In this document: positions 7,399 through 19,805 of the stretch, piece by piece
Layout: every line of letters starts with the position of its first letter
Position numbering within the stretch: position 1 is the first letter of the stretch
IMG/VR virus record: IMGVR_UViG_3300030419_003346
Coordinates: 1 to 25,418 of that record
DNA from: a virus
Length of the DNA stretch: 25,418 bases
Direction: 5' to 3' (one strand)
Made by a program: the position numbers and the translations under genes
The notes under the pieces: model-generated
What the model was told of the DNA's origin: nothing
Database searches by the model: none
Seen by the model: only the letters and a program-made list of their open reading frames with translations

Positions 7399-7663
7399 CA
7401 GGGTTTTTTAATTTGTACAGTAGTTTATCTTCTTCTTCGTCAAACTTTAAGTCTGCCATGTCTGTTTTATAATATAATAACATTGTTAAATAGGCTTGAA
7501 GATTGAAATCAGGCTCGGTCTTTACTTTGTTTCTTATCCACCGCATAACTCGTGCGGCAAAAAAAGCCTTCTCGGCACGGATCAAGTTGTCCTCACCGTC
7601 TTTGATATAGCCTTCTTCTTCTAGCAGCCTGAGGACATTAAAGGTCACTCTGCCCCCGTTCAT
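7271..7663 (-). CDS. Hypothetical protein with acidic C-terminal tail
   Basis: 130 aa, no family recognised. The first 90 residues look helical (LRLLEEEGY, FFAARVMRWIRNKV), then a Glu/Thr/Pro/Asp-rich low-complexity tail ending DADGTPDP. The start overlaps the kinase gene by 26 nt; a GTG at 7648 is an alternative just after a GGGGG run. The last 128 nt overlap the longest reading of the next gene in another frame, and much of the odd composition of the tail lies in that overlap. Confidence 0.6.
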   Translation of the reverse strand: MNGGRVTFNVLRLLEEEGYIKDGEDNLIRAEKAFFAARVMRWIRNKVKTEPDFNLQAYLTMLLYYKTDMADLKFDEEEDKLLYKLKNPDDEVQNIVDELIKNIGKPVPESPKEGEDTTSTTEDADGTPDP

Positions 7664-8570
7664 CCCTCATCTGTTGGATGCGGTCAGCCTCTCGGCGTCC
7701 GCCACGGAAGCCACCTGCTCCGCCGGGTTCTAGCGTGGTCACCCCACGCATCTCTAATTCGTCTTCAATCCATGCTTGTCCGAGTGGGTTGCGAACAGGG
7801 GCGTCAACGAAGCCTGTAATCTTCTCTATGATTTCTTCTTCGGGGGGACCGAACTTATCGTTGTCAATGATTACCATATCATCGCCAAACAATTGTTGGA
7901 AACCTGCTTTGTTATCTTGTACGGCTTTCCACATTTCTCGGACACCATCTTCGCCGAGTTTGCGCTTTCTGCTTTTATTTCTTTCCACCGCTATTTCTTC
8001 GCTGGTGTCAACAAAGATAAGCATGGTGTCATAACCAAGAGCCTCCAGGGCTTTCTTTTGGCGAACCATTTTATCATAGCGGCGACCAGTTCCATCAATC
8101 AACATTCCAAGTCGTCCAGTCTCATAGAACGCTCGGAGGCTAGCAAGTTTTGCCTTGGCTACATTTCTTATGGAGTCGGGACTAGGCCCTTGGATGATGT
8201 CCCAAAGTTCTGGGTCTTCTTCTTCAATTCTTGCTAGGTCGCCTGGATCTATGCCTGCGTCGGCTAGTCCCTTTTCAAAAAGGTTATCAGAATTTACATA
8301 TTTGAGCCCAGTTGACCCTATGAAAGAAGCCTTCTGGAATAGTGGCTTGCCGGATGCGTCTCTCATTCCGAAAATCAAATCGGCTGTGAAGGATTTTCCG
8401 CTTCCGGGTCCGCCAGCCGTGAAGACTGCCTTGAGGATGCCGGGGTCAAAGACGCCTTCCTCAATTACTTCGGGGCTTTCCAGTAGCCATTTATTTCTTT
8501 TTTCTGCCTTATAAGCAGAAACGACCTCAGTAACTAAGTTACGAAGGTCGTTTGCTTGAAAACGATTCAT
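7638..8570 (-). CDS. P-loop kinase (zeta-toxin/polynucleotide-kinase-like)
   Basis: 310 aa from the second of two adjacent ATGs (8570), which has the better spacing to GGGAG. Walker A is GGPGSGKS (about residues 53-60). MLIDGTGRRYDKM is placed like the nucleotide-kinase LID-side Asp motif, and LIFVDTSEEIAVERNKSR resembles the zeta-toxin/PNK strand followed by an arginine-rich lid. Substrate unknown. Upstream of the domain are LRNLVTE, NKWLLES and VIEEGVFD; the last matches the prohead-protease consensus and resembles LIEEGIFD in the 275-aa protein, so the kinase may be processed and packaged. The C-terminus is Gly/Arg-rich. Confidence 0.85.
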   Translation of the reverse strand: MNRFQANDLRNLVTEVVSAYKAEKRNKWLLESPEVIEEGVFDPGILKAVFTAGGPGSGKSFTADLIFGMRDASGKPLFQKASFIGSTGLKYVNSDNLFEKGLADAGIDPGDLARIEEEDPELWDIIQGPSPDSIRNVAKAKLASLRAFYETGRLGMLIDGTGRRYDKMVRQKKALEALGYDTMLIFVDTSEEIAVERNKSRKRKLGEDGVREMWKAVQDNKAGFQQLFGDDMVIIDNDKFGPPEEEIIEKITGFVDAPVRNPLGQAWIEDELEMRGVTTLEPGGAGGFRGGRREADRIQQMRDERGQSDL

Positions 8571-8587
8571 CATTTTCTCCCGAGGGA

Positions 8588-9236: not shown

Positions 9237-9560
9237 CTAATCTTGATGAAAAACTCCAGCGTCTTTTAATTTCTTAAATGCAGCGTGCTCAATCTGGCTG
9301 ATTCGTGGAAAGCTAACTCCCATTCTTTCCGCTACTTCTCTCAGGCTAAGTCCGTTATCGTTCTTCCTGGCACAGACCACTGCACAGTTTAGGTCTTCCT
9401 CGTAATTCATCCAGTTCCGGCACGACTCTACGTCACAAGGAAGCTCCCACTTTTCTTGGACTTCAAAGCAAGTAGGGTCAGGACCATATCGAACCTCTGC
9501 TTGGGTTGGTCTCTTGTTCTTTTCTTTTTGTAATTGTTTTGGATCTTTTCTATAAAACAT
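9237..9560 (-). CDS. Sigma-region-4-like HTH regulator
   Basis: 107 aa. Residues 70-97 (GLSLREVAERMGVSFPRISQ, then IEHAAFKKLK) match the helix-turn-helix of sigma-70 region 4, which contacts the -35 element. No region 2 is visible, so it cannot be a full sigma factor. A Cys-containing middle (C32, C42, C47, C59, C63) may bind metal. It is coupled to the IMPDH/GMPR gene by TAATG and precedes a 70-nt gap before the acidic core-like gene. It may redirect host RNA polymerase for late or structural genes, in the way T4 gp55 acts, but that is inference. Confidence 0.8.
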   Translation of the reverse strand: MFYRKDPKQLQKEKNKRPTQAEVRYGPDPTCFEVQEKWELPCDVESCRNWMNYEEDLNCAVVCARKNDNGLSLREVAERMGVSFPRISQIEHAAFKKLKDAGVFHQD

Positions 9561-10603
9561 TATTTTTTCCGTCCGTTTTGACTGGTTATAATATGAGTCC
9601 CACTTTCAACCGTGCCGGCAGATGTTTGCCGTGCCCACTCAGCCTTGTGTCTTAATTCTTCAATCGAACGGACGCCAGTATAGGACAACCCACTTCTAAT
9701 ACCGCCCTCCAAATCATCAAGAATATCAACAACACTACCTTTATATGGGATATAAGAGGCGACCCCCTCTGGCGTTGATGATTTGTTTCGCCAGTTCATC
9801 TGTGCATCTTTAGAGGCCATACCCCTGTACTCTTTCACTCTGGTGTTGTCAGAGAGGCTGATTACCGTGCCTGGACTCTCTGTCGTGCCTGCCAGCAATG
9901 AACCACACATTACAAAGTCTGCCCCTGCTGCCAACGCTTTAACAATATCGCCCGAGCATTTGATTCCTCCGTCTGCGATGATGGCAACATCTCGGTCTGT
10001 TCTGGCGCAGTCGAAGATTGTTTGTAAGCCTGGTAAACCGTGTCCCGTAACCAGACGAGTGCTACAAATGGAGCCACCACCAATATTACAGCGTACAGCA
10101 TTAGCGCCCCAATCTGCAAGATCATTGATGCCCTCCAGGGTGCAGACGTTGCCTGCCATAATATAAATATGATTACCATACTCTTGGCGCAAGGTGGTCA
10201 GGGCCTTTTTCATCAAGGCGTGGTGACCGTGGGCAACGTCAACGCACAAGATATCAATGCCGGCTGCGATGAGGGCTTCGGTTCGCTCTAGATAATCACC
10301 AGTCACACCGACAGCGGCTGCAACTTGTCCCGACCACTCCAGATGAGTGACCACTGTTTTTGCCATCTCTTGTTGTTCGGTAATCGTATTATAGCGGTGA
10401 AGGACTGCCAGTCCACCCGCTCGATCCATAGCTATGGCCATCTGGTCCTCGGACACGGTGTCCATCGGAGATGAAATGACAGGTAGTCTAAACTCCCTGT
10501 GCCCCAGATAGCTGCTGATATCTACATCTCTGCGACTTGTGATGTCACTGTATTGAGGCACCAGTAACATATCATCATAAGTGACCGCCTCTTTAAACTT
10601 CAT
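9560..10603 (-). CDS. IMP dehydrogenase/GMP reductase-family enzyme without CBS domains
   Basis: 347 aa from the ATG at 10603, which has GGAG 7 nt upstream and opens at MKFKEAVTYDDMLLVPQ, the usual family start. SSPMDTVSE, the Cys loop GGGSICSTR, ADGGIKCSGD and the phosphate-binding MCGSLLAG segment are all present. IPYKGSV and GGIRSGLSYTG favour IMP dehydrogenase (RSG rather than GMP reductase RST), but the length equals GuaC, there is no CBS domain, and the catalytic-flap Arg-Tyr pair is not evident (WRNKSS). The enzyme therefore either makes XMP from IMP or recycles GMP to IMP. It overlaps the zinc-ribbon gene by 11 nt. It fits the nucleotide supply set (RNR, dUTPase). Confidence 0.92.
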   Translation of the reverse strand: MKFKEAVTYDDMLLVPQYSDITSRRDVDISSYLGHREFRLPVISSPMDTVSEDQMAIAMDRAGGLAVLHRYNTITEQQEMAKTVVTHLEWSGQVAAAVGVTGDYLERTEALIAAGIDILCVDVAHGHHALMKKALTTLRQEYGNHIYIMAGNVCTLEGINDLADWGANAVRCNIGGGSICSTRLVTGHGLPGLQTIFDCARTDRDVAIIADGGIKCSGDIVKALAAGADFVMCGSLLAGTTESPGTVISLSDNTRVKEYRGMASKDAQMNWRNKSSTPEGVASYIPYKGSVVDILDDLEGGIRSGLSYTGVRSIEELRHKAEWARQTSAGTVESGTHIITSQNGRKK

Positions 10604-10991
10604 AATTGTTCTCCACCATTTCCCTGCCCTTATCTTGGCAACTTGGACAAAAAAGACTAACTCGTTTTTGTTGCTCCCTAACGACAACTCGCCAAGTCAT
10701 ATGAGCCTCCCGAGTCTTGGGGAACTCCAGTCCACAGGCGCTACACTCTTCTGGTAGTCTGTCAAACATATTCATCTGTTTGCCAAACTGTTCTTGCTGT
10801 TGTTTTGCCTTGGCCTTATCTTTTTTCTTTTTGGCTGCTCGCTTGAGCTTCTTCTTATGCTTCTTGTCCACCGAGCATATCCTTTTCACGTTCGGAAGTT
10901 GTGGTTCCGTCTTTCCAGTAGACAGTCCACCACTTTTCTCCGTTTCGAGTGAAAGGTCCGATAGTCCGACCCTCCAGTCCAGTTTTGTCAT
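10593..10991 (-). CDS. Lysine-rich zinc-ribbon protein
   Basis: 132 aa. A Lys/Ala-rich coil (residues 44-66) is followed by a zinc ribbon with C83-x2-C86 (CSAC) and C115-x2-C118 (CPSC), about 28 residues apart. MFDRLPEECSACG and the RVVVREQQ strand resemble a small family seen in phages (from memory). The basic coil suggests nucleic-acid contact. The start is uncertain: the ATG at 10991 lacks a good ribosome site, and the first 35 residues are atypical, so a later start is possible. Overlaps the next gene's start by 11 nt. Confidence 0.7.
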   Translation of the reverse strand: MTKLDWRVGLSDLSLETEKSGGLSTGKTEPQLPNVKRICSVDKKHKKKLKRAAKKKKDKAKAKQQQEQFGKQMNMFDRLPEECSACGLEFPKTREAHMTWRVVVREQQKRVSLFCPSCQDKGREMVENNYEV

Positions 10992-11005: not shown

Positions 11006-11542
11006 TTAAGCGACAGTTTCATTAAGTTCTCCAATCACCTCAAAAGGCTCACTACGATAATCATATACCCAAGATGGGATTTTGTCTACTGGATAACGCA
11101 AGCGAGGCTTGGAAGCATAGAACTTGCGGTAAGATACAACAGGATTGTCCGACCGAAACTCATCGGGCATAGCCAGACGGAGCGGTGTACACTCGGTGGT
11201 CGGGAAGCGATCAGCATCAAACAGAGCCACGCACTTGTTAAGGGCAACAGCACACTTGTGGGTCTTGCCAAAACGTTTGCCGTACTCTTCGATCATAGCC
11301 TCGCAGTGTAGGGCGAGGTTCATAAAGTTGGCAGCAGACTCAGCAGCCCACAGGCACGACGGGTGTTTGGGATTGAACGAGCGATAAGGAGCGTCAAGTC
11401 CCTGCTCGTTGAGTACGGTAGATAGGATCTGGCAAGACTCCAAGATCATCTTGACAACACGCAGGTTGTCTTGGGACTGGGCTGACTTGACCCAATCAAT
11501 CTCGCCGGTCTCTACATCACCTTCAATAGCAAAAATGTTCAT
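11006..11542 (-). CDS. Conserved phage protein, possibly pyrimidine-dimer-glycosylase-like
   Basis: 178 aa. Motifs NLRVVKMILESCQILSTVL (residues 26-44), HPSCLWAAESAANF (59-72) and EYGKRFGKTHKC (85-96) recall a phage family in which R-V-V-K-M, H-P-[SC]-W and Y-[RG]-[YF]-GK-HKC recur, sometimes annotated as related to pyrimidine-dimer glycosylases. The catalytic assignment is weak and from memory. Coupled by ATGA to the last small gene of the upstream array; the ribosome site GGAGG sits just before the ATG. It is the first gene after the array that is clearly larger. Confidence 0.65.
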   Translation of the reverse strand: MNIFAIEGDVETGEIDWVKSAQSQDNLRVVKMILESCQILSTVLNEQGLDAPYRSFNPKHPSCLWAAESAANFMNLALHCEAMIEEYGKRFGKTHKCAVALNKCVALFDADRFPTTECTPLRLAMPDEFRSDNPVVSYRKFYASKPRLRYPVDKIPSWVYDYRSEPFEVIGELNETVA

Positions 11543-11748
11543 ACGTCCTCCACTAACTTAAGATAACTTTGAGGAATATATTCTTGCTTTTGTCGGATCT
11601 CGTGGTCACCGGACCACTCGACTAAGACATAAGCAGCGGCACCGTGGCGTGGTGCAGGTGACACGCTCTTGACCAAACCAACCATATCCAAATTACTGTG
11701 ACTTAGGGATACTAGCTGTCCGGGCCTAAACTTTGGCATAATTGTCAT
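11539..11748 (-). CDS. Small SH3-like array protein 14
   Basis: 69 aa. FRPGQLVSLSH (residues 6-16) fits the array's G-[DQ]-L-V start; then M-V-G-L-V-K-S-V and Y-V-L-V-E-W-S-G-D strands and a final YLKLVEDV. This matches a five-strand SH3/KOW-like barrel. The start at 11748 has GGAG 6 nt upstream and lies inside the previous gene (23-nt overlap). Last member of the run; coupled by ATGA to the 178-aa gene. Confidence 0.7.
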   Translation of the reverse strand: MTIMPKFRPGQLVSLSHSNLDMVGLVKSVSPAPRHGAAAYVLVEWSGDHEIRQKQEYIPQSYLKLVEDV

Positions 11749-12013
11749 TGTTTTTCTCCGTCTTTACATTATCACAGGAACTCACAATGTCAAAACAATT
11801 ATGAGCGTTCACTAACATTTCTTCAAACCGCTCGCCAGTTGAGATCCACTGCATCTTCACATAGCGTCGAGGAGGATAGCCGTTGCTTGGTCGAGGACCC
11901 GCATAGGATCTCGCAAGGACCAAAGCCAACTGTCCACGGCGAGCACTATGGCGTGCTCGTAAAATAGTTCCGGGCTGTTGAACTTGCCACATTTTATTAC
12001 TACTATCCAGCAT
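11726..12013 (-). CDS. Small SH3-like array protein 13
   Basis: 95 aa. VQQPGTILRARHSARRGQLALVLARS matches the array pattern in degenerate form: P-G-T-I-L replaces K-x-G-D-L-V, and L-A-L-V-L is the second strand. It has an extra Arg/Pro-rich loop (PRPSNGYPPRRY) and a longer C-terminus with two Cys. GGGAGG sits 8 nt before the ATG at 12013, and the start overlaps the previous stop by 11 nt. Confidence 0.65.
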   Translation of the reverse strand: MLDSSNKMWQVQQPGTILRARHSARRGQLALVLARSYAGPRPSNGYPPRRYVKMQWISTGERFEEMLVNAHNCFDIVSSCDNVKTEKNNDNYAKV

Positions 12014-12209
12014 GGCTGACTACCTCCCAGTTCATAGGCATAAAAATACATCGGCTGCCGTTAGGGAACAGCACATCGTGCTTGATGTGTTTGCCGTTGA
12101 TGCTTGGCACCAAGATACCGTACTCGCCGTTCTGTCTGATGGTGACATTCTTGCGGCAGTACTCCTTGATCCGGAGCAGGGTACCAATTTTCAAATCAAT
12201 GCTTGGCAT
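12003..12209 (-). CDS. Small SH3-like array protein 12
   Basis: 68 aa from the ATG at 12209 (MPSIDLKIGTLLRIKEY). This start overlaps the upstream stop by 14 nt, the spacing used at four other array junctions; a longer frame to 12260 lies inside the upstream gene. K-I-G-T-L-L corresponds to K-x-G-D-L-V, followed by G-E-Y-G-I-L-V and W-E-V-V strands. At this junction the shared stop lies in Ile-Asp codons (ATTGAT) rather than Gly-Asp. Confidence 0.7.
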   Translation of the reverse strand: MPSIDLKIGTLLRIKEYCRKNVTIRQNGEYGILVPSINGKHIKHDVLFPNGSRCIFMPMNWEVVSHAG

Positions 12210-12435
12210 CAACCTTCTCCAAAAAATATGCCGCTTCCCAGACTGGCTCTTCGTTATCAAAAGATACTAGGCAAGCATCCTCATCCATTTGTAATGTTGT
12301 GTAGTTCATCATCTTTTTTCCCGTCCCCAACACAACGCCGAGCCTGTCTTTGCCGCCAACTACAAATCGCCTTACGATATCGCCGACCTTGAAGTGGTAG
12401 TCGGGGAGGTAGTCAACTTGGCGAGGAGAGGTCAT
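12196..12435 (-). CDS. Small SH3-like array protein 11
   Basis: 79 aa. FKVGDIVRRFVVGG begins near residue 15, followed by L-G-V-V-L-G and A-C-L-V-S-F strands and a final FLEKVDAKH. An N-terminal extension of about 14 residues precedes the barrel. The ATG at 12435 lies just after the previous stop (TAGTAATG), so here the genes abut without overlap. Confidence 0.72.
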   Translation of the reverse strand: MTSPRQVDYLPDYHFKVGDIVRRFVVGGKDRLGVVLGTGKKMMNYTTLQMDEDACLVSFDNEEPVWEAAYFLEKVDAKH

Positions 12436-12437
12436 TA

Positions 12438-12632
12438 CTACATCGTCTCCAAGTATTGAACTGGGTATTGCTTGGACTCGTGTCCTCCGAACATCACATC
12501 AATACATTCAATCTCGCCGCCGAGATATTCATCGAGCGCCCAGTAGTTGGACTTGGTGACCAGACCCGGAACTCTGCTGGTACCGGCCAGCACTAAATCT
12601 CCAACACGATAGTGTTTCCATTCAGGATTCAT
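12438..12632 (-). CDS. Small SH3-like array protein 10
   Basis: 64 aa from the ATG at 12632 with AAGGA 7 nt upstream; a TTG at 12635 gives one more residue. Y-R-V-G-D-L-V-L-A-G and V-P-G-L-V-T-K-S are the first strands, and it ends QYLETM. One base is shared with the previous stop (TGATG). Confidence 0.72.
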   Translation of the reverse strand: MNPEWKHYRVGDLVLAGTSRVPGLVTKSNYWALDEYLGGEIECIDVMFGGHESKQYPVQYLETM

Positions 12633-12829
12633 CAATACATCCTTGTGGTCAAGTGGCTTCTGTGAATGTGGACGGTATTGCCATCAGGCTTCAATACTTT
12701 CCAATAACTTTTATTTAGTTCTTCAATCAAAACCAGCGGGGTCTTGTGCTCTGCGTGCCAGATAAACCAGTTGGCAGACAGATGGTCAATAGAGGTTTTG
12801 CGAATGCGAACCAAATCACCTGGCTTCAC
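12632..12829 (-). CDS. Small SH3-like array protein 9 (GTG start)
   Basis: 65 aa beginning at GTG (12829-12827): VKPGDLVRIRKTS, then T-P-L-V-L-I-E-E-L and a strand W-K-V-L-K-P-D-G-N. It overlaps the previous gene by exactly 14 nt, and the previous stop TGA lies within its Gly-Asp codons GGTGAT. The ribosome site GGAGGTG is made by the previous gene's Glu-Val codons. Confidence 0.75.
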   Translation of the reverse strand: MKPGDLVRIRKTSIDHLSANWFIWHAEHKTPLVLIEELNKSYWKVLKPDGNTVHIHRSHLTTRMY

Positions 12830-12989
12830 TTACCACCTCCATCATCGTACTATCCAAGTGGACTCGTTGCGGTCCCATTTTAGAATAGTTAACCCAAATC
12901 ATTTCCGGGTCCTCATCATACTTCGAAACATAGCCGCTGTCAAGAACTATATCATAGGCCTTAAACTGGACCAGGGTCCCAAGTTTCAC
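12816..12989 (-). CDS. Small SH3-like array protein 8 (GTG start)
   Basis: 57 aa, translated by hand: GTG at 12989-12987, reading VKLGTLVQFKAYDIVLDSGY and ending MEVVSEAR before TGA at 12818-12816. The start overlaps the previous stop as GTGA, and the end overlaps the next start by 14 nt, so the frame fills what would otherwise be a 157-nt hole in the run. K-L-G-T-L-V is the array start motif and E-V-V-S-E-A-R its end motif. Short length and the GTG start make it easy to overlook. Confidence 0.78.
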   Translation of the reverse strand: MKLGTLVQFKAYDIVLDSGYVSKYDEDPEMIWVNYSKMGPQRVHLDSTMMEVVSEAR

Positions 12990-13234
12990 GATACCTGCTC
13001 CAAGTTACAAACATAATCTACGAAGGAGGGCGTGCCGTCAAAAGGCTCGCACAGGTAAAAGATGTGTTCCTCGGCTCCCTCATAATCTCGGTCAAACGAG
13101 CAAGCGGGCGACACGCTGACAACCAAAGCAAGTTTGTCAACGGTGGTTCCGGCGCTGCTCTTGACCAGCATACCTGGCTGGATGCGACAGCGTTTCTGGA
13201 TTGACTTGTGAAGCTCTTTACCTTGCAGCATCAC
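12986..13234 (-). CDS. Small SH3-like array protein 7
   Basis: 82 aa (81 if the ATG at 13231 is used rather than the GTG at 13234); AGGAGAG lies just upstream. An 18-residue basic N-terminus precedes IQPGMLVKSSAG; L-A-L-V-V-S-V-S and H-I-F-Y-L-C-E-P strands follow, ending NLEQVS. Its stop overlaps the next start as GTGA. Confidence 0.7.
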   Translation of the reverse strand: MMLQGKELHKSIQKRCRIQPGMLVKSSAGTTVDKLALVVSVSPACSFDRDYEGAEEHIFYLCEPFDGTPSFVDYVCNLEQVS

Positions 13235-13240
13235 TCTCTC

Positions 13241-13459
13241 CTAGTCAAACATCGGGTAGTTGTCCCAGAAGGACTTTTCGTTCTTGACCCGCACAAGGCT
13301 CTTCTCATCAACCTTGAGCACCTTACGCATCACACCTGCGGACGGCTTGCCGATAGCACGGGCACGCTTCAGGGCCTCACGCTTGCTGTCAGCACGGACT
13401 TGGTTGTAACCTCCACCGACCCAGTTCCACTTGTAAAGATTCTTGCCTTTGTACATCAT
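13241..13459 (-). CDS. Small basic protein, first gene after promoter P2
   Basis: 72 aa from the ATG at 13459, which follows GGAGGGAGAGAG. Not of the SH3-like type: it reads MMYKGKNLYKWNWVGGGYNQ, then a basic helix (SKREALKRARAIGKPSAG) and ends WDNYPMFD. This order recalls small viral DNA- or RNA-binding modules, but no family is recognised. It heads the second half of the array from its own promoter. Confidence 0.65.
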   Translation of the reverse strand: MMYKGKNLYKWNWVGGGYNQVRADSKREALKRARAIGKPSAGVMRKVLKVDEKSLVRVKNEKSFWDNYPMFD

Positions 13460-13479
13460 ATCTCTCTCCCTCCACAAGT

Positions 13480-13507
13480 ATAGTAGCATTAATATAAACT
13501 ATGTCAA
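13480..13507 (-). promoter_or_regulatory. Sigma-70-type promoter P2
   Basis: TTGACA (13507-13502), 16-nt spacer, TACTAT (13485-13480), then AGGGAGAG ribosome site and ATG at 13459. The -35 box shares bases with the TGA stop of the upstream gene (ACTTGA). It splits the small-gene array into two transcription units. Confidence 0.75.
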
Positions 13508-13725
13508 GTTTTATTTTGTGCCTTTGAAAGTAAAGTTAGGGAGGGTCTTGGGACCCAATAATTTTTTTCTGGGGTCTGGACCAAGAATTTATTGTCCGCA
13601 GTAAAAACAAAACGCTGCTTGATCACAACGCCAGTGAGTTTTTTCTCGGTAATGTATTCTTCCGTTGCTTGCTTTGTAGTGAACTCCACAAGGTCGCCAA
13701 CATTGTAAGCGAAGCTAGTCTTCAT
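13504..13725 (-). CDS. Small SH3-like array protein 6
   Basis: 73 aa. Y-N-V-G-D-L-V-E-F near residue 8 begins the barrel, with L-T-G-V-V-I-K-Q and K-F-L-V-Q-T-P strands and S-L-T-L-L-S near the end. Starts at ATG 13725, overlapping the previous gene by 11 nt. Its stop lies in the -35 box of promoter P2. Confidence 0.72.
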   Translation of the reverse strand: MKTSFAYNVGDLVEFTTKQATEEYITEKKLTGVVIKQRFVFTADNKFLVQTPEKNYWVPRPSLTLLSKAQNKT

Positions 13726-13930
13726 TTTCCACCAACCTCAAATGATGGACAGAATAATATTCCTCCATCTCGTAGCCAATCCAATTAACTTTTACACAGG
13801 TTGTCCCGTGGTTTTTGACTTCGGGGTATGAAAGGACAAGACCCAATTGCCGACCGTGCCTTTCTTTAACTTGGTCGGATTCATTAAAACTCCAGTTGGG
13901 CTCAACCAAGTCACCTGGCTTTAGATTCAC
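13715..13930 (-). CDS. Small SH3-like array protein 5 (GTG start)
   Basis: 71 aa beginning VNLKPGDLVEPNW from a GTG. L-G-L-V-L-S-Y and C-V-K-V-N-W-I-G strands follow, ending LRLVENED. It overlaps the previous gene by 20 nt; the upstream TGA again lies in the GGTGAC codons for Gly-Asp, the two extra codons before K-P-G-D explaining the longer overlap. Confidence 0.75.
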   Translation of the reverse strand: MNLKPGDLVEPNWSFNESDQVKERHGRQLGLVLSYPEVKNHGTTCVKVNWIGYEMEEYYSVHHLRLVENED

Positions 13931-14081
13931 TGAGCACCTCGCACGAAGACATTCTCCATTTACCCTTACCTTCAGTGGTGAGGACAGTCATCATTCCCGC
14001 ATCTGAAGTGGAGCGAGCCGGGCGCATCACTACCGCCGTAAAGCCAGTAATTTTGTGCCTTACCAAATCACCCGGCTTCAT
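13911..14081 (-). CDS. Small SH3-like array protein 4
   Basis: 56 aa from the ATG at 14081 (MKPGDLVRHKITGFTAVVMR), ending CEVLSESKAR. The longer frame to 14150 is rejected because the 14-nt overlap with the upstream gene and the GGAGGTG ribosome site fix this start. Strands: G-F-T-A-V-V-M-R, M-M-T-V-L-T-T, W-R-M-S. Confidence 0.75.
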   Translation of the reverse strand: MKPGDLVRHKITGFTAVVMRPARSTSDAGMMTVLTTEGKGKWRMSSCEVLSESKAR

Positions 14082-14241
14082 TGAGCACCTCCAAAGACGT
14101 GATGGGATGAGAAAAAGTGCCGTAGTCGCCAGACCACTGAACCTTGACAACGGCTCGGTCTACATTTACTACGAGCCCGAGTTGCTGGCGCTTCCATCCT
14201 TGCCATCCCTCGTGTCGTTTTACCAAGTCACCGACTTTCAT
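14068..14241 (-). CDS. Small SH3-like array protein 3
   Basis: 57 aa, translated by hand: ATG at 14241-14239, reading MKVGDLVKRHEGWQGWKRQQ, then LGLVVNV, VVKVQWSGDYG and ending LEVLNEAG before TGA at 14070-14068. Both ends overlap neighbours by 14 nt, and without it a 150-nt hole would remain. Textbook array member: start motif, G-L-V-V strand, V-x-V-x-W strand, L-E-V-L end. Confidence 0.8.
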   Translation of the reverse strand: MKVGDLVKRHEGWQGWKRQQLGLVVNVDRAVVKVQWSGDYGTFSHPITSLEVLNEAG

Positions 14242-14392
14242 CAACTAACTCCAAGTTTTGGGGCAACATATAAAAGTCGCCGATGGGGAAGCGAACAATC
14301 CATTCGCCAGCATATTTGCCAGGCTTGACAATGAGCCCAACTTCTGAATAGCCTTTGTCAATTTTCTCTCTGACCAAATCACCGACTTTCAC
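14228..14392 (-). CDS. Small SH3-like array protein 2 (GTG start)
   Basis: 54 aa, translated by hand: GTG at 14392-14390, reading VKVGDLVREKIDKGYSEVGL, then IVKPGKY, W-I-V-R-F-P-I-G-D-F-Y and ending LELVDESR before TGA at 14230-14228. GGAGGTG lies 7 nt before the start. 14-nt overlap on both sides. Short and GTG-initiated, so easily missed. Confidence 0.8.
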   Translation of the reverse strand: MKVGDLVREKIDKGYSEVGLIVKPGKYAGEWIVRFPIGDFYMLPQNLELVDESR

Positions 14393-14579
14393 TTAGCACC
14401 TCCTTGACCCGCCACGCACTACAACTGCCGTTGCTGTCATCATCAGCATAGCGCAACTTAACATGGGGATATTCCGCATCAGGGGTCTGCATATAGACTT
14501 CTGTGAGAATAGCCATATGGTCCGACCTCATCATAACGAGGTCGCCGACCTTCAGGCCTTTACGCCACTCGTTGCTCAC
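14379..14579 (-). CDS. Small SH3-like array protein 1 (GTG start)
   Basis: 66 aa from GTG at 14579 (VSNEWRKGLKVGDLVMMRSD), which overlaps the previous stop as GTGA; the longer frame to 14663 is rejected for that reason. M-A-I-L-T-E-V-Y and H-V-K-L-R-Y-A-D-D strands follow, ending VKEVLSESR. It opens the continuous run of K-x-G-D-L-V proteins. Confidence 0.72.
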   Translation of the reverse strand: MSNEWRKGLKVGDLVMMRSDHMAILTEVYMQTPDAEYPHVKLRYADDDSNGSCSAWRVKEVLSESR

Positions 14580-14769: not shown

Positions 14770-14797
14770 ATATTATCATGGAAAGGAAGTATGTCAA
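14770..14797 (-). promoter_or_regulatory. Sigma-70-type promoter P3
   Basis: TTGACA (14797-14792), 16-nt spacer, TAATAT (14775-14770), then ATGTAGGGAGAGAG and ATG at 14749. It is the best match to consensus of the promoters seen and drives the first half of the array. Confidence 0.82.
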
Positions 14798-14802
14798 ATA
14801 TT

Positions 14803-15135
14803 TTATGATAGTCGAGTTATAGTTTTTGTGGACGGATCAACATTAATAGTTTGCTCTAGTTTTCCAATAGGATTATAGGGAGCCTCAGCTTCCGATGTGT
14901 CATCAGCATCAATGACCTCTGATAAGCCAAAGTGCTTATCATCTACTTGACTGACCCACCTAAGATCATCTCCGTGCTCTCGTCGAATCAACAGCCAAGG
15001 GCCTGGGCAATCAGAGTTGCCAATCTTGTGTCCAGCAGGTTTTATTTCTTCAATTATCCAGACATCCTCTTCTGATTCGCATTGGTGTTTATGCTTAAGT
15101 TTACAGTTTAAGATTACTTTTTGTCCGATTTCCAT
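14803..15135 (-). CDS. Hypothetical beta-rich protein, array-like N-terminus
   Basis: 110 aa from the ATG at 15135, with GAGGAGG 8 nt upstream. MEIGQKVILNCKLKHKHQC resembles the array start in weakened form (I-G-Q-K-V-I for K-x-G-D-L-V); V-W-I-I-E-E-I and W-L-L-I-R-R-E strands follow, then an acidic, less ordered tail. Three Cys (C11, C19, C43) and several His could bind metal. It may be a diverged array relative, but it lies before promoter P3 in the dUTPase transcription unit. Confidence 0.62.
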   Translation of the reverse strand: MEIGQKVILNCKLKHKHQCESEEDVWIIEEIKPAGHKIGNSDCPGPWLLIRREHGDDLRWVSQVDDKHFGLSEVIDADDTSEAEAPYNPIGKLEQTINVDPSTKTITRLS

Positions 15136-15148
15136 ATCTTGTCCTCCT

Positions 15149-15610
15149 CTATCGGTTTCCAGTTGACCCAAGGGCACCGTCGCCACGGGAAGTTTCCTCA
15201 TCATAAATATTATCTGCTTCAACAATCTTAACATCCGTGGTGATTTTTACGAAGACTGCCTGGGCAATCTTATCACCAGCGTGAAGCGTCTGTGTCCTGT
15301 CGCTGGGGTTGTGAAGGTTCACAAAGATTTCTCCTGTGTAGCCTCGATCGACAACACAGGCACCGACGATCAGTCCACGCTTGGAAGAGATACCAGACTT
15401 ATTCTTGATCTCCAGCATATATCCTTCGGGCACCTCAATCTTTAGGCCAGTTGGGAAGAGCGATGAACCGTGAGGTAGGACGCTTTCAATCTGCTTTGGG
15501 ATGTCGTCCCGTGGTGCTGGGCAGAAAAACAAATCCATGCCGGCATCTGTTGGGTGTGCTCGCACAGGTAGTTTAGCGTTCTCGTGAAGTCGTTGGACTC
15601 GTACTTTCAT
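15149..15610 (-). CDS. dut: Deoxyuridine 5'-triphosphate nucleotidohydrolase (dUTPase)
   Basis: 153 aa, the normal trimeric dUTPase length. All five family motifs appear in order: PTDAGMDLFF (1), NKSGISSKRGL (2), GACVVDRGYTGEI (3), AGDKIAQAVF (4) and RGDGALGSTG (5). The enzyme turns dUTP to dUMP and pyrophosphate, keeping uracil out of DNA and feeding dTMP synthesis. The ATG at 15610 has GAAGGA 6 nt upstream. The frame is open further back to 15709, adding 33 residues with a Cys cluster (CYDCGCDLKPAC); a TTG at 15709 overlapping the polymerase stop, with AGGAGG upstream, could start that longer form. Confidence 0.95.
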   Translation of the reverse strand: MKVRVQRLHENAKLPVRAHPTDAGMDLFFCPAPRDDIPKQIESVLPHGSSLFPTGLKIEVPEGYMLEIKNKSGISSKRGLIVGACVVDRGYTGEIFVNLHNPSDRTQTLHAGDKIAQAVFVKITTDVKIVEADNIYDEETSRGDGALGSTGNR

Positions 15611-15705
15611 TTTGTTTCCTTCTCGGTCGGCGCAGGCTGGTTTCAAATCACACCCGCAGTCATAACATTCATCACTAACATTAAATAATTTACTTTGGTC
15701 CACGA

Positions 15706-18700
15706 TCAAGTAAGCCTCCTAAAGCTGCGTCTAATGGAGCGGGTACTGAATCCCCACTTCTCATTGTATTCAAGGTTTGCAATATATACTTTGTTGAGAG
15801 AGATTTTGTCGTCTTCTCTCACACCCCAGCAGCGGATGCGAGCATCAAAGGCGTTGCTGTCGGTCGTGTGGATAACCCAGTATTCTTTGCCGTTCTTTGT
15901 TTTCTTTACTTTTACTTCCCTTGGAATGAACCAGACCAGTTGAAGGTCAGGGTCGTACTCGCTGATAGGCGGACAGCCACGGGTCATCAGGTTGTCCTGA
16001 ATCTCTTGCGGCATAATCTCGTGGATGGGGAAGATGCCTGTCAGGGATGCGAAGTGTTCCAACTTCTCTTCTTCGGAGAAGTCACCCTCCGGTGCATAGA
16101 CATCAATATTTTCCAGCAGGTTCTTTTCCTTGCGTGGCCTGTCCACGGCAACCGCTGACCAAAAGTGCTTCAGTCCTGTGAACCTGTCGTCCATCAATTC
16201 GTCAAGGGCTTTGCTCCTGACCAAAACATCCAGCGCCTTCTTGTTGAGCTTGGAGTATGTGATGTTCTCGTTAAAGATAAATTCCTCAATACTATTGAAG
16301 GGTCGGTTGGCTACGATCTGATCAATAGCACTATCCCCCAGACCCTTGATGCCTGCGAGCGGCTGAATCAAGGTCTTGCCATCCTCCGCAATCTCCCACA
16401 CTCGTCCTGACTTGTTGACGCTTGGCGGGACAATCTCAAACCCAAAGGACTTGGCTGTATTGATTGCTCCTGCTTTCTTATCTTCGGGCTCCTTGTCCAA
16501 GAACGCAGCCATCCACTCAACCGGATAATAATAACTGAGCCACGCACACTGGAAGGACACCGCCCCATAGGATACAGCGTGCGATAAGTTGAAGCCGTAG
16601 CCTGAAAAGTATTCCATCTTAGACCAGAGGTTTTTGGCTACGTCCTCGGTCAGCCCGTGCTTGCCGCAACCCTTGACGAACTTATTATAAAGTTTGGTCT
16701 TGATATTATCTTTTCCTGTTCCCTTTTTCGTTAGAACTTTGCGGAGCAGGTTGCCCTCGTCTAGTGATAGGTCATCGCCCAGCTTGTGAGCGAGCATAGC
16801 CAACTGCTCTTGGAAGACCAGCAGCCCGTATGTATCTCCGAGCACTTCTTTGATGATTGGGTGCTCGTAGTGTACTTGGCTAGGGTTGGACTTGTTCGCA
16901 ACATACAGACTGTGAGCCTTGGCGCTAAGTGGACCAGGGCGGAAAATAGCCGTGACTGCTGCGAAGTCTAACAGGGATGTGGGCTGGGCTTCTTGGCAGA
17001 ACCGCTGGGCTCCGCCGTTGGTCATCTGGAAGATGCCGGCCCACTTACCTTTGTGGAAAACCTCTCGCCAGACTTCTTGGTTGTCAAAGTCAATCGTGTC
17101 TGGGTGGAGGTGTGTATTATAATAATCTCTCACCTGCTCAAAGGTTGGGTCCTCGATGCCTTGATGGCGTTTGAGGATGTGACGAATGGCTCCCGAAATC
17201 ATACGGAGAGTTGACAATCCGAGCAGGTCAAACTTGATGAAGCCGAGCGGCTCCAAGTGTCTGACGTTCTGCCCTTCGCTCCACGGTGTCTGGATGACAC
17301 CGCCAGAGTTGATTAGGGGCATATGGCGGTCAAGGTTTTCTGCCACCACAACCCCACCAGCGTGCCGAGAAATACTCCGCATATTGCCGAAGAGGTTATC
17401 AACGTGAGTAGCAACCTCTGGGTACTTGTCAAAGAAGTCTTGGAGTGTTTCACTGTATTCTTTTACCTCGTCAAATGTGGGAGTGTAGACGCCAGCGGTC
17501 TGCCCCTTGGCTGCCTTGGCTTTTGGTGTGGCTTCGCTCATCATCACGCCAGTCACCTTGTTGACTTCGGTGAACGGGATATTATAAAACTTGCCGATGT
17601 CTTTGATGAGCGAGCGGAGTTGTAGCGTGTTGAAGTTGCTGATGGGTACAACCGTGGTTGGCCCCCACTCATCTGCTAGTTGCTTCTTCAACTCCATCGG
17701 CTCCTCAACATCAAAGTCAATGTCGGGGTAGCCCGTGCCGCCCTTGGTCAGGAACCTCTCAAACTGTAATTGATATTTGATTGGGTCCACCTGTGTGATG
17801 TCTAGGACATAAGACAGGAGTGAACCGGCTGCTGAACCTCGTCCAAGTCCGACCAGCATTTCCTCCTGGGCTTTGTCCGAGATAGCTTTCATCGTCAAGA
17901 AGTATTGAGCGAAGCCACGCTCCTTGATGATGTTGAGTTCATACTTCAAGCGGTCCACATACTCGGGGTCTGTGATATTCTTTTTCTTCATGCCCTCCAA
18001 GGCGTCGGAGGTCAGAGCCTGGATAGCTGTCTTGCCCTCGGGCACAACAAACTCTGGGAGGCGGACATCGCTGTTGGGAACAAAATCTTCGCATCGGTCA
18101 AAGGCGATGTGATGTGTACGCTCAATGCTGTCACGGATGAAAGTATCATCGTACTCAATCTTGTGTTTGGCAGCGTACCTCTTGTATGATTCCATCATCT
18201 GGTCGCCGTTCTTCGGGTAGAGTTCGTAGCCGACCTCTTCCACAGATGCGGGCAGCAGACTATCAGGGTCAGCCCACTCTGGGACCTTGCCGCCCCAACC
18301 AATGCGCTTGTACATCTCCCGGTCTTTCCACAGTTCTGGTCGTGGATAGTGGCTGTCGGCTGTGCTGATGACCTCAACACCCATCTCCATACAGGCTTGG
18401 ATGATAAGGTTGTTGCCCTCGTGTTGTTCTTTGATGTCGTTCCACTGGACTTCGCCGTAGAACCTGTCGCCAAAGATCTCCTTGAACTGAGCAATAGTAT
18501 CTCGCATAGCGGCGAGCACATGGTCAGGGCTCTTGTCCCTGTTCTTCCAGTAGTCCCCGAACAGAGGCCCAGACATACAAGCGGTGCTGATGATTAGCCC
18601 CTCGTTATACTTGTCCAGCATCTCAAAGTCCATGCGAGGGTAACGATAAAAGTTTTCAGGCTGGTAACTATCCGACACTAGTTTGAATAAGTTGTTTAGT

Positions 18701-19170: not shown

Positions 19171-19516
19171 GTTCTTTTTCTTCGTCGGACTTATCACCAT
19201 AGACATCCTTTGTTCCATCCTGATAGGTGATGATAGTTTGGTTGCCTGGGTGTGGCTCAATGTGAACCTTCACAAAGTCACTCATACTATCAAAGATCGC
19301 AATACCACCACGGGGTGGTGGGTAGAGCCAGTGAACAACGCATTGACCTGTCGCCATAACGACGCCTTCAATAACCACACCGTCACCTGAAACTCCTGTC
19401 TCATCGTGTTGGCGGTAAACTGTGAAACTGGTAATCCCTCTTGGTGCCAACTTGGGTGGTGGCTTTGGGATTAGGTCATCAGCAACCTCTTCAACCGTCT
19501 TCTGTTCTTCGCTCAT
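19151..19516 (-). CDS. Conserved beta-rich phage hypothetical protein
   Basis: 121 aa. The ATG at 19516 is chosen over 19531 because GGAG lies 9 nt before it. An acidic, proline-rich N-terminus (PKPPPKLAPRG) precedes a compact beta domain: YRQHDETGVSGDGVVIEGVV, CVVHWLYPPPRGG and VHIEPHPGNQTIITYQDGT. The segment G-V-S-G-x-G-V-V-x-x-G resembles a short phage family known from many unrelated phages, of unknown role (from memory). The C-terminus is acidic. It overlaps the upstream gene by 26 nt and carries promoter P4 in its last codons. Confidence 0.7.
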   Translation of the reverse strand: MSEEQKTVEEVADDLIPKPPPKLAPRGITSFTVYRQHDETGVSGDGVVIEGVVMATGQCVVHWLYPPPRGGIAIFDSMSDFVKVHIEPHPGNQTIITYQDGTKDVYGDKSDEEKELEQSQK

Positions 19517-19805
19517 CTTGGTATTCTCCATGGGCTAACAAAACATTTCGCAACCACTTGGTGCTAACTGGCTTGAGCCAGTCTGCTCGGATTGTGTTGG
19601 TGTGTACCTTTCCAGAGTTCATTTTTTTATCCCACGCAACTCGACGTTCGTGAATATCATCCTCAAAAAAACGGACATCAAAATAAGCCCAGCCGTGATC
19701 GCCAGTGGACTGGCCCTCAACAATGCCAAACCGCAATAGTCCGTGGTGATAGTTCATTACAAATGTTCCTACGTCAATGCCGTAGGGTTCGCCCTTGAGT
19801 CTCAT
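19491..19805 (-). CDS. Hypothetical SH3-like protein resembling the small-gene array
   Basis: 104 aa. I-D-V-G-T-F-V-M-N-Y (residues 10-19), R-F-G-I-V-E-G and W-A-Y-F-D-V-R-F-F strands follow the plan of the array proteins at 11.5-14.6 kb, though with a longer charged C-terminus. AAAGG lies about 7 nt before the ATG at 19805. No named family; the similarity is by layout only. Confidence 0.65.
   Translation of the reverse strand: MRLKGEPYGIDVGTFVMNYHHGLLRFGIVEGQSTGDHGWAYFDVRFFEDDIHERRVAWDKKMNSGKVHTNTIRADWLKPVSTKWLRNVLLAHGEYQDERRTEDG

Follow-up and report, generated by a model that had tools for sequence, protein, structure and literature searches.

Rows of tiny genes joined by a 14-nt junction that codes in two frames in uncultured ocean phages

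Why should a phage keep a long row of tiny genes whose products begin almost alike, and what joins such a row together? The question is raised by a virus fragment of 25,418 nucleotides (nt), IMG/VR record IMGVR_UViG_3300030419_003346, positions 1–25,418, which was analysed at its full length and is called the window below. On its minus strand, from position 14579 to 11539, 14 small open reading frames (ORFs) lie head to tail, each starting with K-x-G-[DTQ]-[LI]-[VL]; a single unrelated gene, x06 (13241–13489, minus strand), interrupts the array. A sequence-only reading of the same DNA had described a tandem array of about 14 tiny genes with a K-x-G-D-L-V-type start, and this description is confirmed here. 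In phages of this kind the rows reach about twenty tiny genes. Many of the genes are joined by one 14-nt sequence read in two frames, and sequence comparison indicates that whole genes are swapped between related phages at this junction.

Relatives of the window were collected in two ways. IMG/VR was scanned with the DNA polymerase of the window, which yielded 52 related loci on contigs of up to 201 kb, with polymerase identity to the window reaching 94%. A wider search looked for two K-x-G-D-L-V starts at the spacing of neighbouring genes, in viral contigs and also in bacterial and archaeal genomes. At least 117 of the 192 loci fetched through this pattern contained five or more matches to a profile of the array, and at least 100 stretches of IMG/VR contain comparable arrays; among 257 Gb of bacterial and archaeal genomes, the pattern was found in six stretches. 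The whole collection comprises 1,223 distinct proteins in 636 clusters.

The junction DNA is TGGAGGTgaTcA[A/G]TGAAAGTCGGTGATTTGGT, and it is read in two frames over an overlap of exactly 14 nt. It encodes the tail of the upstream protein (E-V-x-S/N-E-S-R-stop), a ribosome-binding site and the head of the next protein (M-K-V-G-D-L-V). For example, A-GTG-AAA-GTC-GGT-GAT gives M-K-V-G-D, and the other frame, AGT-GAA-AGT-CGG-TGA, gives S-E-S-R-stop; GGAGGT just before these bases is both the ribosome-binding site and the codons for E-V. In the window, the 14-nt junctions lie on the minus strand between m00 and m01 (14379–14392, S-E-S-R-stop over V-K-V-G-D), m01 and m02 (14228–14241), m02 and m03 (14068–14081), and m08 and m09 (12816–12829), with a 20-nt variant between m03 and m04 (13911–13930). 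Most of them belong to the upstream part; in the downstream block, genes meet at ordinary boundaries and their order is stable.

The exact 14-nt overlap was present in 429 of 613 distinct adjacent pairs over all loci, most of which derive from the pattern search, and in 48 of 99 pairs in the polymerase-derived loci. Since the pattern search favours K-x-G-D at the very start of a protein, the resulting 70% is an overestimate and 48% is the fairer figure. Elsewhere in three genomes, overlaps of 14 nt made up 3/180, 2/168 and 5/174 of gene pairs, about 2–3% by crude gene calls. Junctions drawn at random over all arrays were 75% identical; gene interiors in the window were at chance level. The glycine codon was GGT in all 423 of the 423 14-nt cases, as the embedded TGA requires, versus 84 of 169 other cases. 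Similarly, the C-terminal motif occurred in 74% of the pairs with a 14-nt overlap and in 1–4% of other pairs, so that it is mainly a by-product of the dual-coding junction. We therefore rejected the conserved C-terminus as a fold signature, and the [LCM]-E-[VL]-[LV]-x-E end, earlier taken for a shared protein feature, loses most of its weight as such. Away from 14-nt junctions, the N-terminal motif occurs more often than the C-terminal motif, and hence it also has a structural component. Neither motif, at the start or at the end, is a protein signature independent of the other.

Next, we asked what happens at the junctions when related loci are compared. The exchange set consisted of genes with at least 88% DNA identity between two loci that were flanked by 14-nt junctions, and it contained 14 neighbour changes on the right side and 12 on the left side. 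For right-side changes, identity stayed at about 0.9 up to about +20 nt past the start codon and then fell to chance level; for left-side changes, it dropped at about −12 nt from the start codon. In three loci (L096, L108 and L138), one gene that is 96–99% identical stands after three different genes. Neighbours were switched at 47 of 81 14-nt junctions versus 6 of 67 other junctions (Fisher p 2e-10), and with a stricter identity requirement at 16 of 35 versus 1 of 35. The two classes of junction come from the same arrays. One mark of mosaicism mediated by boundary sequences is thus present, namely a short sequence shared at the border with exchange localised at that border. The junction would act as a translational-coupling element and also as a homology patch for recombination, whereby genes could enter the row, leave it or replace each other without loss of frame. 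The upstream part would then be an exchangeable set, and the downstream genes F2-F7-F3-F4-F5, followed by a phrog_624 gene, a more stable core. At L006:7372–7743, the ORF of one member still includes, on its upstream side, what is left of the start of a different member (MGKPGVRTPANWSCSMKPGK...), as if an insertion had taken place at the K-P-G-D start.

Alternatively, the junction could be kept solely for compact translation, with illegitimate recombination producing swaps that are seen at boundaries because only those survive; a boundary bias that arises through selection is the usual account of phage mosaicism (PMC3029335). However, selection for intact genes is equal at the other boundaries in the same arrays, and these switch less (6/67 vs 47/81), which makes this account somewhat unlikely. 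The preferred reading, in which the junction takes part in the exchange, recalls two known systems. Integron gene-cassette arrays likewise line up single-gene cassettes that can be exchanged and that share one kind of joint; here the joint is coding sequence, and an attC-like site or adjacent integrase was not recognised, no search having been aimed at either. Conserved boundary sequences have also been proposed for phage mosaicism, although at most borders none are found (PMC3029335). The linker sequences proposed for lambdoid and other phages resemble the junction in being short shared border sequences where modules exchange (PMC3029335). In contrast to such linkers, the array junction is itself coding in two frames and contains a ribosome-binding site, and many copies of it lie between paralogous mini-genes of a single genome.

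To what extent the array members are relatives of each other was addressed by comparison with shuffled sequences. The summed pairwise score of the 14 members was 2739, versus 2020 ± 42 in shuffles, and 2145 versus 1861 ± 37 after removal of the start motif. Profile-profile comparison linked many subfamilies with the start motif and about half without it. Past the start motif, the similarity is statistically real for the array as a whole, yet about half of the subfamilies account for it. Among the 7,644 ORFs that both strands of 53 sequences contain (the 52 related loci and the window), a profile built from the 14 members matched 200; every one of these lies on the coding strand, and nearly all sit between the polymerase and IMP dehydrogenase genes. 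Because the 14 members trained the profile, their own matches are no evidence; the evidence lies in the other matches and in the order of orthologs. After iteration, the profile matched none of 4,923 shuffled ORFs. Related layouts had been suggested at 19491–19805 and 14803–15135, and the profile recovered neither. The members scanned had no match at E ≤ 0.001 in PHROGs, Pfam and NCBIfam (for m11–m14, PHROGs was scanned and Pfam left out), and the profile found nothing convincing among PDB sequences (best E 0.042). Outside the array, a protein of 151–157 amino acids has a C-terminal K-x-G-S-L-V domain that resembles array members (L271–L274 region, G001:103245–103718; G005:91805–92260; G004:81625–82080).

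Clustering of the members gave subfamilies F0–F24. In the window, all on the minus strand, the order is m00 (F0, 14379–14579, with a GTG start at 14579), m01 (singleton F22, 14228–14392), m02 (F9, 14068–14241), m03 (grouped with F1, 13911–14081), m04 (F1, 13715–13930) and m05 (F8, 13504–13725). Beyond x06, which had no match to the array profile and has an ortholog in few loci (L006, L063, L064), follow m07 (F6, 12986–13234), m08 (F10, 12816–12989), m09 (F2, 12632–12829), m10 (F7, 12438–12635), m11 (F11, 12196–12435), m12 (F3, 12003–12209), m13 (F4, 11726–12013) and m14 (F5, 11539–11748). The usual order of the recurring subfamilies in the loci of the first scan is F0-F9-F1-F8-F6-(F12)-F10/F14-F2-F7-F11-F3-F4-F5; the phrog_624 gene often comes next, and F0 and F1 also have some additional or displaced copies. 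Across related loci, full arrays have 6 to 17 members, F0, F2, F3, F4 and F6 form a near-constant set, and the upstream part has a high turnover, with singletons in most arrays. The proposal that the members are old duplicates with diverged loops is supported for the subfamilies by the ortholog order kept in most related phages; the upstream part, however, shows more than diverged loops, as whole-gene exchange at a shared junction is still reshuffling it.

The array is missing at this site in some close relatives (L003, with a 94% identical polymerase), and none was found in G004 and G008, two large related genomes. In the 174.6-kb genome G005, from a clade with 77% polymerase identity, about 44 kb separate the array from the polymerase gene, and the order within the array is partly changed; a constant link of the array to the site between dUTPase and IMP dehydrogenase was therefore rejected. 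The median ratio of nonsynonymous to synonymous substitution rates (dN/dS) was 0.19–0.35 in ten subfamilies versus 0.05–0.10 in the polymerase, dUTPase, IMP dehydrogenase and other neighbours, and purifying selection was found in every subfamily tested. The subfamilies are thus functional, under looser constraint than the neighbouring enzymes.

When would the array be expressed? A promoter-like sequence, TTGAC-N-TA---T, occurred 62 times on the coding strand of array regions and six times on the opposite strand, with 4.2 expected per strand, and most of these sites have TG before the −10 element. In the window, sigma70-like promoters with TG before −10 match the consensus upstream of the array (14770–14797, minus strand; similar sites in related loci) and within it beside the start of x06 (13480–13507, minus strand); another promoter-like site lies within m13, upstream of m14 (11765–11793, minus strand; same site in several relatives). 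In genome G001, the stricter form of the promoter is absent from 0–50 kb, where a T4-type portal is encoded, and from most of the tail region. Counts of the late-promoter motif TATAAATA were too few to inform. The promoter-like sites suggest that the array is transcribed early, and such early expression would be driven by host RNA polymerase.

An AlphaFold2 model of m04, made with 33 relatives, is a five-stranded barrel (predicted local distance difference test, pLDDT, 81; predicted template modelling score, pTM, 0.66) with strands at residues 8–11, 30–32, 43–50, 56–60 and 64–66 and a short helix before the last strand. Its structural matches are mostly SH3-like: Tudor, PWWP, Spt5 KOW, NusG KOW, PetP, NdhS and R67 DHFR. 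Since the matches had VIA Z values of 6–7 and none reached a Foldseek E ≤ 0.001, they point to a common fold, not to a family. The m09 model has low confidence (pLDDT 72, pTM 0.48) and matched just part of the SH3 core. Because this model is poor and fewer profile links remain without the start motif, we predict an SH3-like barrel, with fair confidence, for m04 and its close subfamilies only. The SH3-like fold that had been claimed for all members thus stands for m04 and, in part, for m09.

Taken together, a fairly probable reading is that of a modular array with a shared junction, gene exchange, early expression, small barrels for host takeover or counter-defence, and an exchangeable upstream set beside a stable core. 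The products would be small barrels with varied targets among the components of the host or of defence systems, and from the sequence features the most likely role of the array is probably a bank of early host-directed proteins. The idea of host-takeover or anti-defence effectors had been put forward before; it remains a predicted role, compatible with the promoters, with the tight packing of the genes into a compact operon on one strand, with the relaxed purifying selection and with the variable content beside methyltransferase and FtsH genes. Adenine methyltransferases of the MT-A70 and D12 types lie beside arrays (L013:13411–13965; L011:17220–18146), and an FtsH-like AAA+ protease is encoded in the array's variable interval (L013:20703–22532, the copy scanned, with AAA and Peptidase_M41 domains; further copies at L002:19503–21332 and L036:20060–21886). 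In archaeal viruses, early promoters guided the discovery of anti-defence genes (PMC11065993). The host-takeover module of SPO1 groups early genes, most of them small, that have strong promoters and ribosome-binding sites (PMC6873191). The array is similar in having small clustered genes, with promoter-like sites that suggest early timing. We know of no single fold or junction shared by the SPO1 genes. Nip of phage phi3T is a counter-defence protein with predicted SH3-like domains (PMC11984713); likened here by description, not sequence, it differs in having 279 amino acids and two SH3-like domains plus an HU-like domain.

Several points weigh against the modular-array reading. Not all of the counted swaps are independent of each other, and phages may simply have less need of the genes with 14-nt junctions than of others. 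The pattern scan behind most loci inflates the share of 14-nt overlaps (70% instead of the fairer 48%). The fold of the SH3-like matches is very common, m09 is poorly modelled, and early expression is read from promoter-like sequence alone. A bolder version describes a cassette system in which a universal coding 14-nt junction is at once translational coupler, reading-frame adaptor and recombination site, and the barrels are drawn from an environmental pool against host defences; this is possible but less likely than not.

If the proteins mainly act on nucleic acid, they would be KOW/Tudor-like barrels that adjust transcription by binding to DNA or RNA of phage or host, or to RNA polymerase, a role that has been proposed for the KOW domain of T4 MotB. 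Spt5 KOW, NusG, PWWP and Tudor are among the nearest solved folds, some subfamilies are basic (isoelectric point 9.6 for F2 and 9.8 for F3), and T4 MotB, which is made early and binds DNA, has a predicted SH3/KOW-type domain, its KOW motif being N-terminal (PMC7827196). MotB, also likened by description and not by sequence, differs in having two domains, with an added OB-fold, and no array. However, the mean net charge over the 1,223 proteins is −0.3, with 24% above +2 and 28% below −2, and F1, F6, F7 and F10 are acidic. This spread makes a uniform nucleic-acid role unlikely, and a uniform DNA-binding role was likewise judged unlikely from charge; we consider the explanation as a whole unlikely. 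That the members form one hetero-oligomeric complex, with overlaps enforcing co-translation of the subunits, is quite improbable. Overlapping genes often encode partners, and the fixed subfamily order in most related loci and the near-constant F0, F2, F3, F4 and F6 would fit a complex; but an obligate complex is disfavoured by the variable membership (6 to 17 in full arrays), the exchange of neighbours, the rearranged order in a second clade and the two large related genomes without an array. Finally, a largely selfish or neutral array, in which junction repeats drive duplication and exchange and genes persist without individual benefit, would explain the high upstream turnover and the singletons in most arrays but is highly improbable given the purifying selection in every tested subfamily and the placement of promoters.

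The surroundings of the array characterise its carriers. The minus strand of the window encodes a DnaB-type helicase, DNA polymerase III alpha, dUTPase (15149–15709, the array's upstream landmark), IMP dehydrogenase (9560–10612, its downstream landmark) and a cpn60 chaperonin, together with a ribonucleotide reductase whose features are of the B12-dependent type (class II). The phrog_624 gene (11006–11542, minus strand; ‘DNA binding protein’, endonuclease V-like) often closes the array and in the second clade moves along with it; its product resembles pyrimidine-dimer glycosylase (Pyr_excise at E 0.0037, which does not reach the cut-off of Pfam). The window had no near match among 50,697 phage records, and among the matches listed, cultured phage proteins share no more than about 31% identity with its polymerase. 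In cultured phages, tblastn of six members gave no match or E ≥ 0.7. Polymerase III alpha was present in 15 of 16 records tested, mostly array carriers, and a T4-type portal in nine of 16; several of the tested records without a detected portal are fragments. The carriers form a lineage of large uncultured ocean phages that have polymerase III alpha, together with a T4-type portal in records that extend to this gene. On a WOR-3 bacterium chromosome (L268, CP070664.1), three array-type genes with the same junction were seen, possibly a prophage or the result of mis-binning. The window also encodes a protein resembling a Zeta-toxin/AAA-type kinase (7638–8573), and this one fragment holds both a phage IMP dehydrogenase and a cpn60 chaperonin (1138–2724).

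In the literature, as covered by open-access text, we found no such arrays and no boundary coding in two frames that is repeated between paralogous mini-genes. The junction may therefore be a new form of the proposed boundary sequences, with a real chance of being a category of its own. As a border sequence that is repeated within each genome, codes for protein and is linked to the exchange of neighbours, it makes the linker hypothesis directly testable. It also advises caution, since conserved protein ends can arise as by-products of overlapping genes. If the products are early host-directed proteins, these arrays would be a large untapped catalogue of small binders, with 1,223 proteins in 636 clusters.

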